Assembly (NCBI GenBank): GCA_947174725.1
Contig: CAMWKA010000004.1
Location: 1 to 17,984 of the forward strand
Direction of reading: 5' to 3'
DNA from: an uncultured Lachnospiraceae bacterium
GTDB taxonomy: Bacteria; Bacillota; Clostridia; Lachnospirales; Lachnospiraceae
DNA length: 17,984 nucleotides
Shown: piece by piece, positions 15,258-17,984 of the stretch
How positions within the stretch are numbered: the first letter of the stretch is position 1
How the letters are laid out: each line of letters begins with the position of its first letter
Notes under the pieces: generated by a model
What the model saw: the letters and a program-made list of their open reading frames with translations, nothing else
The model's database searches: none
Told to the model about the DNA's origin: nothing
Program-made: the position numbers and the translations under genes

Positions 15258-15291
15258 CGCAATATATCGCTTACAAAAGTTTTTACGGAAA

Positions 15292-15320
15292 AGGAAGCAC
15301 TGACATCATCAGTGCTTCCT
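15292..15320. terminator. Shared terminator between convergent genes
   Basis: A 12-bp stem AGGAAGCACTGA (15292-15303) with TCAGTGCTTCCT (15309-15320) closes a 5-base loop between the permease (plus) and the hydrogenase-like gene (minus). The T-rich tail is better on the minus strand. The minus-strand stop codon (15319-15321) lies within the stem. Confidence 0.8.
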
Positions 15321-17268
15321 ATTTCACCTCATCCAAAGCTCCTTCCTGGATCAGCTCCAAAAGAATATCCACAATATGGGCATCCAGCTGTGTTCCTGAT
15401 ACCCGCTTCATCTCAGCAATAATGTTTTCCATCGGCATACATTCTCTGTAGGGGCGGGTAGAATGCATGGCATCAAAAGTATCTGCAACCGCAATGATCC
15501 TTGCAACCTGCGGAATTTCTCTTTCCTGCTTTCCGCTGGGATACCCCTTTCCATCCAGCCGTTCATGATGATACCCGGCGCCCAATGCCAGATTCGGCAG
15601 ACAGTCGATCTCCTTTAAAATCTCATAACCATATTGTGCATGCTGTTTGATCGTTTCGTACTCATCATTCGTAAGTTTTCCGGGCTTGTTCAAGATATCT
15701 TCCGGAATGACAACCTTCCCGATATCATGCAGCAGAGCAATATGATAAATGTTCTCCAGCATTTTGTCGTTATATCCCATCTTCGCTGCGATCAGCCTTG
15801 CATACTCCGCTACTCTAAAAGAATGTCCCTTTGTGTACTGATCTTTAATGTCAATGCTCTTGGCAAAAGCGCGTATCATCTGATTGATAAACAGCTCGCT
15901 TTCCTTTTCCTCCTTAATTGCCTGCTTCAATTCCTTATTCTGCTCTTCCAGCCTGACAGAAAACGCATGAATCCGGTCCTTCATAAAGTGGATGCAGTTT
16001 TCCGGTATATTGCTGCCATTGTAAATTGCCTCTGCCATTTCCATACAGTTTCCGTAACCGCACGCTCCGCAGTTAATATTCCTCTGCTCCCAGCTTATTT
16101 TGTTCATGGAAAGGAATATGGCATCCAGCTCCTTCTCATCCGGTTCACGCAGGGAAATACTGCCGGATTTATCGGTATAATTCCGCATAAAATCCCGGAT
16201 ATCCAATTGGGAAAACTGCTTGTTAAATTGTTTCAGGCGCTCCGCCGGCGCAAGCGCTTTTGAAAACGGACTCTCTCCGCTGTTCTTTTTGCAACGTTCC
16301 CTGATCTCCTGCAGATTATAATAGTTTTCTTCTGAATCATTTTTTTCAATTTCAATACCCGTCCCGTAAAGGCAGCCTCTGTCACAATTCAGTATATCTA
16401 TCATAAACGGTACTTTTTGTCCATTTGCCAATCTCTTTCTATAGTCCTTTAAGAAGGTATAGGCGCGCTTTTCCCCCTCTACCTGCCGTACAAATGCTTC
16501 CTCACCGCAAAACCAATAGACATTCTCCTTAAGCCCTCCCGGTGTAGGATAGACAGAACCCAAACCATATTCAATCTCGTCCGTTGCGTCTGCGCCGGTA
16601 ATATGGTGTTTCCGCGCATATTCCATAAAATGACGAAAGGTCAGATTATAAGATACATAACCATATGTATTAGGATCGGTAATCTCGATTTTTTTTGCCA
16701 TACACGGACTGATAAATGCCAGCTTATCCGTAATATGCAAATATTTTTTCGCATAAATCGCCGCACACAGCAGAGGACTGTGAATCGGTATCAGCTTCTG
16801 TATCAGGTCAGGTGCGTAATGCTCAATATAATTGACTACTGCGGGACAGGGTTGGGAAATTCCGCCCTGCAGGTCATGCTCTGAAATATAGTTGATATAT
16901 CCCCATGTGGTAATGTCAGCGCCGAAACTGACACTGATGATCCGGTTGACCCCCAAAGCCTTCAATCCGCCTAATATAGAGGCATATTCCTCCGGGTAAT
17001 TGGCTTGAAATGCCGGAGCGAGCAGCACAGAGATCTGTTCCCCCTGCTCTAAATCACGGAAAAACTGTTCCGTATCATCATAATAATCTCTGGCGTTATG
17101 TTCACACACATCAAAGCAGGCGCCACATGCGATACAATTTTCACTATGTACCTCAATCCGCTGTCCGTCCTCTGATTGAACGGAATAATTTGCAGTCAGA
17201 ACAGGGCAGACCGAAATGCAGCGATTACACCCCTGACATTTTTCATTTGTATAGACCAGCTGACTCAT
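15319..17268 (-). CDS. FeFe-hydrogenase-like sensor fused to an HD-GYP c-di-GMP phosphodiesterase
   Basis: A 649-residue cytoplasmic fusion. Residues 1-60 carry two 4Fe-4S ferredoxin motifs (Cys11/14/17/21 and Cys45/48/51/55). Residues about 78-305 match the FeFe-hydrogenase large subunit: QPCPAV with Cys141 (L1), SPCMAKKIE with Cys189 (L2) and CDRGC with Cys295/Cys299 (L3), so all four H-cluster ligands remain. The Cys used for proton transfer in catalytic enzymes is replaced by Pro140, and the GGG tail of L3 is altered, as expected of sensory (HydS-type) members. A second 4Fe-4S domain follows (Cys400/403/408/425, CGACGYGNC). A coiled coil (about 434-465) leads to HD-GYP (about 466-640) with His481, His514-Asp515, His543, His567-His568, GYP 575-577 and Asp596, a full active-site set. 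Predicted role: redox or H2 state controls c-di-GMP hydrolysis. A purine-rich Shine-Dalgarno (GAGAGGAAAG) precedes ATG 17268. Transcribed alone. Confidence 0.88.
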   Translation of the reverse strand: MSQLVYTNEKCQGCNRCISVCPVLTANYSVQSEDGQRIEVHSENCIACGACFDVCEHNARDYYDDTEQFFRDLEQGEQISVLLAPAFQANYPEEYASILGGLKALGVNRIISVSFGADITTWGYINYISEHDLQGGISQPCPAVVNYIEHYAPDLIQKLIPIHSPLLCAAIYAKKYLHITDKLAFISPCMAKKIEITDPNTYGYVSYNLTFRHFMEYARKHHITGADATDEIEYGLGSVYPTPGGLKENVYWFCGEEAFVRQVEGEKRAYTFLKDYRKRLANGQKVPFMIDILNCDRGCLYGTGIEIEKNDSEENYYNLQEIRERCKKNSGESPFSKALAPAERLKQFNKQFSQLDIRDFMRNYTDKSGSISLREPDEKELDAIFLSMNKISWEQRNINCGACGYGNCMEMAEAIYNGSNIPENCIHFMKDRIHAFSVRLEEQNKELKQAIKEEKESELFINQMIRAFAKSIDIKDQYTKGHSFRVAEYARLIAAKMGYNDKMLENIYHIALLHDIGKVVIPEDILNKPGKLTNDEYETIKQHAQYGYEILKEIDCLPNLALGAGYHHERLDGKGYPSGKQEREIPQVARIIAVADTFDAMHSTRPYRECMPMENIIAEMKRVSGTQLDAHIVDILLELIQEGALDEVK

Positions 17269-17371
17269 TATTTCTTTCCTCTCCCCTTATTCTATGGCAC
17301 GTATTGCTCAATACAAATAGCGTAAACTATATACATATTAGTCCTTAAGTTCATATAATTATCGTATAAAT

Positions 17372-17412
17372 ATTGTATTCCACTTGACAAACACTGTCAA
17401 TATTTATATAAC
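17372..17412. promoter_or_regulatory. Back-to-back promoters with mirrored -35 boxes
   Basis: TTGACA-aacac-TGTCAA (17384-17400) is an inverted repeat of two perfect -35 boxes. Minus strand: TTGACA (17395-17400), a 17-base spacer and TACAAT (17372-17377), leading to the hydrogenase-like gene with a leader of about 95 bases. Plus strand: TTGACA (17384-17389), a 17-base spacer and TATAAC (17407-17412), pointing into the 3' end of the D-LDH gene. Confidence 0.65.
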
Positions 17413-17494: not shown

Positions 17495-17929
17495 TCATTT
17501 GACCTCATTTGCTAACTCTTCCCCTTTTTCTACTGCCGTCGCGTTTTCAAGCGTGACCTGCGCAATAGAATGCATCGCCTCTTTTGTAAAAAAGCCCATA
17601 TGTGAAGTCAGGATAACGTTTGGAAATGTGGTGAGCCTTGCAAGGTTTTCGTCCCGTATGATTTTATTGGAACAGTCCTCATAAAAGATACCCTCTTCCT
17701 CTTCATAGACGTCCAGACCCACGCCGGCAATCTTCTTTGATAACAATCCGTCGATCAGCGCGCCCGCATCGATCAAACCGCCTCTCGAAGTGTTGACGAT
17801 ATAAACGCCCTTCTTCATCTGACTGATGCTTTCCTCGTCGATGATATGATACGTGTCCTTCATCAACGGACAGTGCAGCGAAATCACGTCCGCCTCTGCC
17901 AGTAGATCCTTTAATGGCATATATTCTAC
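17495..17929 (-). CDS. ldhA: D-lactate dehydrogenase, C-terminal part (truncated by contig end)
   Basis: The last 144 codons of an NAD-dependent D-2-hydroxyacid dehydrogenase that reduces pyruvate to D-lactate during fermentation. Visible are the end of the NAD-binding domain (ADVISLHCPLMKDTYHIID) and the catalytic triad: Arg in VNTSRGGLID, Glu 29 residues later in DVYEEEEG, and His 32 residues after that in TSHMGFFTKEA. This spacing equals that of Arg235, Glu264 and His296 in lactobacillar D-LDH. The IFYEDCSN stretch is typical of fermentative LdhA. The stop is TGA. The 5' half is missing because the sequence beyond 17929 is sequencing adapter, not because the gene is broken. VanH is a relative, but no van genes are nearby. 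Confidence 0.9.
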   Translation of the reverse strand, partial: VEYMPLKDLLAEADVISLHCPLMKDTYHIIDEESISQMKKGVYIVNTSRGGLIDAGALIDGLLSKKIAGVGLDVYEEEEGIFYEDCSNKIIRDENLARLTTFPNVILTSHMGFFTKEAMHSIAQVTLENATAVEKGEELANEVK

Positions 17930-17984
17930 ATGTCTCGTATACACATCTCCGAGCCCACGAGACGCTCATGAATCTCGTATGCCG
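17930..17984. other. Illumina Nextera adapter contamination at the contig end
   Basis: From 17931 the bases TGTCTC-g-TATACACATCT match the 19-base Nextera mosaic end (one substitution at 17937, plus a at 17930 for the leading C). They are followed exactly by CCGAGCCCACGAGAC (17949-17963), an 8-base index GCTCATGA (17964-17971) and ATCTCGTATGCCG (17972-17984), the start of the P7 primer site. The order adapter-index-P7 is that of a Nextera library read-through. This is an assembly artefact, not genomic DNA. Confidence 0.96.

Follow-up and report, generated by a model that had tools for sequence, protein, structure and literature searches.

The M2e and M2f classes of [FeFe]-hydrogenase-like proteins, reportedly defined by Calusinska in 2010, include sensory proteins that resemble the one described here. 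In the accessible parts of the papers on them, TamHydS of Thermoanaerobacter mathranii (group D, M2e) has Ser and Leu at the positions of M353 and M497, lacks C299, has a Cx2Cx4Cx16C cluster motif and no PAS domain, and after activation in vitro contains a functional H-cluster (PMC8163306); its proton path depends on Glu252 and Glu289, both conserved in group D (PMC10407848), and its C-terminal cluster is not reduced by H2 (PMC13104023). TmHydS has Gly and Ser at the M353 and M497 positions (PMC8163306), and both proteins have Ala at position 299 (PMC11803613, PMC10407848). Here we analyse a gene that joins a sensor module of this kind to an HD-GYP domain, a predicted phosphodiesterase of cyclic di-GMP (c-di-GMP). 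It lies in a stretch of 17,984 bases, the window, which is the whole of contig C4 of a Lachnospiraceae metagenome-assembled genome (MAG; 72.67% complete, 1.98 Mb, 321 contigs). The pairing looks new, in that it gives receptors of the putative sensory, [FeFe]-hydrogenase-like kind another output: in the open-access literature (most subscription papers lay outside the search) we found no paper uniting HD-GYP with [FeFe] proteins, and papers on [FeFe], c-di-GMP and hydrogenase, judged from their search entries and from passages of PMC10787695, describe no such fusion.

A sensor module and an HD-GYP domain in one chain

The gene occupies 15319..17268 of the minus strand (ATG at 17268, TAG ending at 15319) and encodes 649 amino acids; the plus-strand frame beginning at 15319 is interrupted by stops. 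Its open reading frame (ORF), its Pfam matches and the recurrence of this pairing in 39 clusters of homologues identify it as a sensory [FeFe]-hydrogenase-like/HD-GYP fusion. The original prediction, made from the letters of the window, had placed the gene correctly, and the two ferredoxin clusters, the H-cluster domain with four Cys ligands and Pro for the relay Cys, and the further 4Fe-4S domain that it described were all recovered. Two [4Fe-4S] ferredoxin clusters (residues 5-60, 17089..17256, minus strand as for all parts of the gene; Fer4_10 at residues 5-55, 1.9e-9) are formed by C11, C14, C17 and C21 and by C45, C48, C51 and C55, and these eight cysteines are invariant in 106/106 H-modules of the tree set described below. 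The H-domain (Fe_hyd_lg_C, residues 79-302, 4.3e-29; 16363..17034) keeps the H-cluster ligands C141, C189, C295 and C299 (window numbering) in 25/25 aligned fusions and 106/106 tree-set modules; domain and four [4Fe-4S]H cysteines together identify an [FeFe] hydrogenase H-domain fold. P140, present in all 106 modules, occupies the place of the CpI relay Cys299. A model of the sensor module reached a predicted local distance difference test score (pLDDT) of 93, and its structure matches CbA5H and CpI; the listed Protein Data Bank (PDB) matches say nothing on NARF/Nar1-like proteins. The full-length AlphaFold2 (AF2) model, built on a shallow alignment (A1), was poor (pLDDT 59.8) and was discarded as a source of the geometry between module and HD-GYP domain.

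A second-sphere alignment (A2) compares 60 sensory rows, namely the window protein and 59 of 90 picked diverse modules, with 19 group A/B-like rows (13 B-like, 6 A-like). At the relay-Cys position, Pro stands in 60/60 sensory rows and Cys in 19/19 group A/B-like rows; L293, at the M497 position, is found in 60/60 against Met in 19/19, and S187, at the M353 position, in 59/60 against Gly in 13/13 B-like and Met in 6/6 A-like rows. L246 is present in 60/60 sensory rows (Val in 19/19 group A/B-like) and D291 in 59/60 (Glu in 19/19), and across the tree set the two recur in 106/106 and 105/106 modules. The Glu of the A-like rows (6/6) is replaced at the G123 position. An extra H-domain cysteine, C168 in the motif SPLLC, occurs in 59/60 sensory rows and in none of the 19 group A/B rows, and is possibly an additional ligand or relay. 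K192, the equivalent of CpI K358, which we take to contact the diiron cyanide, is retained in 79/79 rows. Glu252 and Glu289 of TamHydS, placed by hand from published mutagenesis-primer motifs without the TamHydS sequence, map to L246 and D291. Judged from these alignments, the module is like sensory HydS, yet each of the two proton paths in the literature has lost its first relay here, Cys299 in one and Glu252 in the other. The term HydS-type, used in the original prediction, thus holds for a HydS-type sensory module joined to HD-GYP in one chain, but the protein is not simply a HydS, since it has neither relay and carries Pro, not Ala, at position 299 (PMC10407848, in its accessible part).

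The C-terminal [4Fe-4S] cluster (PF04060, residues 398-426, 3.7e-9; 15991..16077) follows the pattern Cx2Cx4Cx16C, and its C400, C403, C408 and C425 are invariant in 106/106 tree-set modules. Behind it lies a helical linker (residues 427-465; 15874..15990), a putative signalling coiled coil. From the last Cys of the cluster to the HD-GYP start motif it measures 50 (36 sequences), 57 (19) or 29 (1) residues, and all 56 lengths, taken from 39 cluster representatives and 17 locus copies that are in part the same proteins, are equal modulo 7. The low-confidence full-length AF2 model has helices at residues 426-441, 445-452 and 455-475. As few independent length events underlie the steps of seven, the pattern hints at, but does not prove, a coiled coil fixed in register, such as had been predicted.

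The HD-GYP domain (residues 468-632, 15373..15867; HD_5 2.8e-36, HD 7.6e-23) has the signature HD ... HHExxDGxGYP with its metal-binding His and Asp, and H482, H514, D515, K518, H543, H567, H568, D572, G573, G575, Y576, P577 and D596 are invariant in 25/25 fusions. The claim that all metal ligands are kept is borne out for these signature residues; it does not extend to the additional Glu found in PmGH, a trimetal enzyme, presumably E185, which faces Y478 in the alignment to the PDB match, so that the metal site looks bimetallic. The closest PDB entry is 5z7c, a 3'3'-cGAMP-specific phosphodiesterase 3 (4.5e-41), a match that would suit a domain that cleaves another cyclic dinucleotide, or only binds partners, and has no action on c-di-GMP. 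We consider this improbable, given the full signature in every aligned fusion, the nearly equal closeness of 4mcw (3.9e-35), which we take to be PmGH, and the many GGDEF proteins in the genome. GGDEF matches number 17 in the window's own MAG and 6 to 28 in each of 16 fusion genomes.

We propose, with a probability of roughly 0.55, that the fusion is a redox/H2-gated c-di-GMP phosphodiesterase. The protein would be a one-component signalling receptor, probably cytosolic and presumably dimeric. Its N-terminal [FeFe]-hydrogenase-derived sensor, whose putative cofactor sites are the pair of ferredoxin clusters, the H-cluster domain lacking both of the first proton relays known from publications, and the distal [4Fe-4S] cluster, would read H2 and/or the redox state of the cell's ferredoxin; the state of the sensor would pass along the heptad-constrained coiled coil to the HD-GYP domain, which would hydrolyse c-di-GMP. 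H2 level sets fermentation energetics in the gut, and in gut anaerobes such a receptor would connect H2 or low-potential redox state to the c-di-GMP pool through a single component. Redox or hydrogen state could then have a direct influence on whether the cell moves or settles. An earlier interpretation along these lines finds partial support in the c-di-GMP network of the genome and in motility-type relatives, which carry the same module fused to a methyl-accepting chemotaxis protein (MCP) output. The fusion also offers a handle on how sensory hydrogenase-like proteins transmit their signal: unlike PAS or MCP outputs, HD-GYP is a directly assayable enzyme, so that a test-tube assay could show how cluster state affects the output.

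A clade-specific fusion family and its relatives

A domain-architecture search, suggested with the original prediction as a check, returned the same fusion in 39 protein clusters. Among the best 120 of 7,916 homologues, 39 are HD-GYP fusions (P0001-P0039), 80 have an MCP signalling domain and one has neither; the MCP fusions carry an H-module up to 72% identical to residues 4-430 of the window protein, with the same 16 cluster cysteines. Searching with residues 395-649 yielded the 39 fusions and one FeS-HD-GYP fragment, after which the score falls from 362 to 306 bits; below this step stand Reg_prop/Y_Y_Y HD-GYP proteins, with PF07494 or PF07495 in 79 of the next 80 rows. Six pairs taken from genomes in which HydG had no match give dN/dS values of 0.02-0.21 across four regions, and the fusion protein is under purifying selection. 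The fusion is a real, selected, clade-specific family.

For the tree, 116 ORFs were reduced to 106 rows, window included, by dropping L002 (the window itself), L020 and L026 (in-frame stops), a second short ORF of L024 and identical modules. The 17 HD-GYP rows form one clade (SH-aLRT 99) among MCP rows; the tree was built by a quick method with a midpoint root, and a nested position presumes a root outside the HD-GYP clade. MCP is here the default label for all rows other than three kinases and those with an HD-GYP motif; Pfam agreed with it in 7/7 rows scanned, and many, not all, of the remaining rows have the MCP motif. The fusion apparently arose once, in or near Lachnospiraceae. Its clade among MCP fusions and its Reg_prop-like HD-GYP domain suggest that an MCP-type sensor exchanged its output for an HD-GYP domain closest to those of Reg_prop proteins.

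Among the 80 of 158 loci that encode a relative, 16 encode full-length HD-GYP fusions by motif, all in MAGs labelled Lachnospiraceae (9), Clostridium (4), Coprococcus (1), Bacteroides (1) and Bacillus (1), the last two perhaps misassigned. The three nearest relatives of the window protein (L094-L096) are 92-97% identical to it. In a family panel of 150 genomes (149 at least 90% complete, plus the window's own), a full-length match was found in the window's own genome only, among the matches listed. A second sensory-type gene is present in 13/16 fusion genomes (PF02906 matches of 80-115 bits); five of these genes (L203-L207) carry the H-module by BLAST, and a paralogue in the window's own genome (L001) is an MCP fusion by motif. 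Ten related modules were scanned for output domains: seven feed MCP outputs and three feed HisKA-HATPase or HisKA-HATPase-receiver outputs. The kindred H-modules of L029, L038 and L040, with histidine-kinase or hybrid-kinase output, point to an exchangeable sensor within one bacterial family.

These outputs bear on the idea that the H-domain is a slow working hydrogenase, with the HD-GYP domain merely localising or regulating it. The hydrogenase fold and four ligands agree with such an enzyme, but other residues stand in place of Cys299, of the group A Glu at the G123 position and of the group D Glu252, and modules of this kind also drive MCP and kinase outputs; we judge it very improbable.

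Maturases and the H-cluster content

Presence of the maturases HydE, HydF and HydG had been named as a further check, and its outcome is mixed. No HydG match was found in the window's own MAG (72.67% complete), where HydF matches were only partial and below cut-off (best, model positions 9-169 of 392) and HydF_dimer gave no match. HydG and HydF were both detected in 9/16 fusion genomes and neither in 7/16, including those of L094-L096; the two are never discordant. In the panel, HydG exceeds the cut-off in 73 genomes and HydF_dimer in 86. HydG was found in 73/138 genomes with group A/B-type PF02906 genes, classes set in this analysis as E-value bins of the best PF02906 match, versus 0/11 without (p 7e-4), demonstrating that maturases follow catalytic hydrogenases. 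No association of HydG with the sensory module was seen in the 149-genome panel (17/31 versus 56/118 genomes, Fisher p 0.55), where the sensory module is present in at least 31 genomes among the matches listed. Neither HydG nor HydF was detected in 51/138 genomes with group A/B-type genes and in 11/31 sensory-module genomes, 31 being a lower bound. Search failure was rejected as the cause of missing HydG, as a protein query with family HydG (29 genomes) agreed with the hidden Markov model search. Eight of 15 HydF-only regions were examined; they contain no N runs and, save in genome G037, just weak 26% radical-SAM matches to HydG.

For the H-domain, six pairs from HydG-lacking genomes give dN/dS values of 0.05-0.07, and three pairs from genomes with HydG give 0.03-0.06; constraint on the H-module is therefore much the same whether or not maturases were detected. 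The H-domains of L102 (HydG found) and L103 (not found) are near-identical (dN 0.006). Constraint where maturases went undetected may reflect absence of a diiron site, an unrecognised maturation route or genome gaps.

Such constraint would fit the chief alternative to our proposal, in which the H-domain holds a [4Fe-4S] cluster only, with no diiron subsite, and simply senses redox state, O2 or NO to control c-di-GMP hydrolysis. The four cluster cysteines remain invariant although the window's own MAG and 7/16 fusion genomes yielded neither HydG nor HydF, but the maturases go undetected about equally beside group A/B genes. Moreover, 20 group A/B-type proteins from HydG-lacking genomes keep their motifs (TSCCP in 13, TSCSP in 7; PCxxK and CxxGC in 20/20), so that maturase absence is not diagnostic, and we rejected it as proof that a diiron site is missing. 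The absence of any HydG association and the near-identity of L102 and L103 also agree with a [4Fe-4S]-only sensor, as does the loss of both published first proton relays; against this stand the K192 kept in every A2 row and the in vitro activation of the related TamHydS (PMC8163306, in its accessible part). We regard this alternative as possible though rather unlikely. A wider version, more doubtful still, holds that the Lachnospiraceae H-cluster-fold receptors with MCP, kinase and HD-GYP outputs work as a class without a HydEFG-made diiron site, as [4Fe-4S]-based gas or redox receptors with a fixed pocket (QPC141, C168, S187, L246, D291, L293), one branch of which would directly control c-di-GMP breakdown. 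If so, no maturase would be needed by the near-identical proteins that occur both where HydG was detected and where it was not.

Several points also weigh against a redox/H2-gated c-di-GMP phosphodiesterase, the reading that we prefer. H2 turnover may be negligible, as neither Cys299 nor Glu252 is present, and the C-terminal cluster that H2 leaves unreduced in TamHydS (PMC13104023, in its accessible part) is here the part nearest the output. To these are added the failure to find HydG and HydF in the window's own MAG and 7/16 fusion genomes (HydE was not searched), the poor full-length AF2 model, the lack, among 17 loci, of a conserved neighbourhood in which hydrogenase, motility or biofilm genes accompany the fusion, and the finding of no biochemical characterisation of any family member in the literature searched.

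The maturase survey gave further observations. Kineothrix alysoides KNHs209 (G166), an isolate with an MCP-type protein (L124), has TSCCP-type genes (L183, L201) yet no HydG or HydF match in the genome copy analysed. The top-scoring group-A-like proteins (L046-L075) are mostly TSCSP, with Ser for the expected L1 ligand Cys, as in HydA1 (7q4v); because HydA1 has the same TSCSP, the notion that they are non-canonical hydrogenases was dropped. Divergent HydF homologues of 43-47% identity occur in L091 (6011-7228, G105), L092 and L093, from genomes without HydG over cut-off, and the neighbours of that in L091 within 13 kb are not other maturases. In L090 (5965-6432, G037) the HydG match covers the C-terminal third only, beside HydF, in a genome without a PF02906 match; this maturation locus looks like one in decay.

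The locus and comparison with known systems

The fusion gene looks monocistronic, judging from a ribosome-binding-site-like stretch, AAGGGGAGAGG (17278..17288, minus), a promoter-like TTGACA-17-TACAAT (17372..17400, minus; 11/12, a consensus match only) and, at the stop, a terminator-like hairpin with a short T run, GGAAGCACTGA-TGATG-TCAGTGCTTCC-TTTT (15287..15319, minus). The hairpin and the ribosome-binding-site-like stretch were read from the sequence; the hairpin overlaps the last base of the stop codon and is absent from the site list of the scan that gave the promoter-like site. Upstream on the same strand lies a D-2-hydroxyacid dehydrogenase gene (17495-17944, minus) cut by the contig end, and downstream a convergent FtsX-type permease gene. 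In 17 loci, of which some are truncated at a contig end, conservation of a neighbour's position does not reach beyond the window's clade L094-L096; only these loci have a dehydrogenase homologue upstream of the fusion gene, at a distance of 0.1-1.1 kb. Paralogues of ABC-ATPase-like and kinase-like type recur in varying places. An Rfam search of the window gave no match.

Among described systems, the window protein does not belong with group A, having P140, S187 and L293 in place of the TSCCP relay Cys299, M353 and M497. With group D TamHydS it shares the loss of Cys299, Ser for M353, Leu for M497, the Cx2Cx4Cx16C motif and the lack of PAS, but it has Pro rather than Ala at 299, Leu at the Glu252 position, Asp at the Glu289 position and a fused HD-GYP domain; filing the module under group D was rejected because of the Leu. 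Like TmHydS of Thermotoga maritima (group C, M2f), it has two ferredoxin clusters, an H-domain and a C-terminal cluster and has lost the relay Cys; unlike TmHydS, it has no PAS domain among the 18 Pfam families that match it with an E-value of 0.1 or lower, and its second-sphere residues differ. HydDB group C2 ('chemotactic', MCP-linked, putative sensory) resembles the relatives, as the same H-module occurs in MCP fusions, with the HD-GYP clade among them, a likeness drawn from the description of C2 and not from HydDB sequences. Its trait of MCP coupling is present in relatives and, by motif, in paralogue L001, whereas the window protein has an HD-GYP output and no PF00015. The HD-GYP domains most similar in sequence are those of Reg_prop/Y_Y_Y-HD-GYP proteins, with 58-70% identity in the 80 listed rows that are not fusions, but these proteins have a propeller sensor instead of the H-module. 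A proposed link from H2 to c-di-GMP also features in the putative, diguanylate cyclase-linked [NiFe] group 2c (PMC5037454, in its accessible part); there the metal centre is unrelated and the output is c-di-GMP synthesis, whereas the fusion described here would act in its breakdown.
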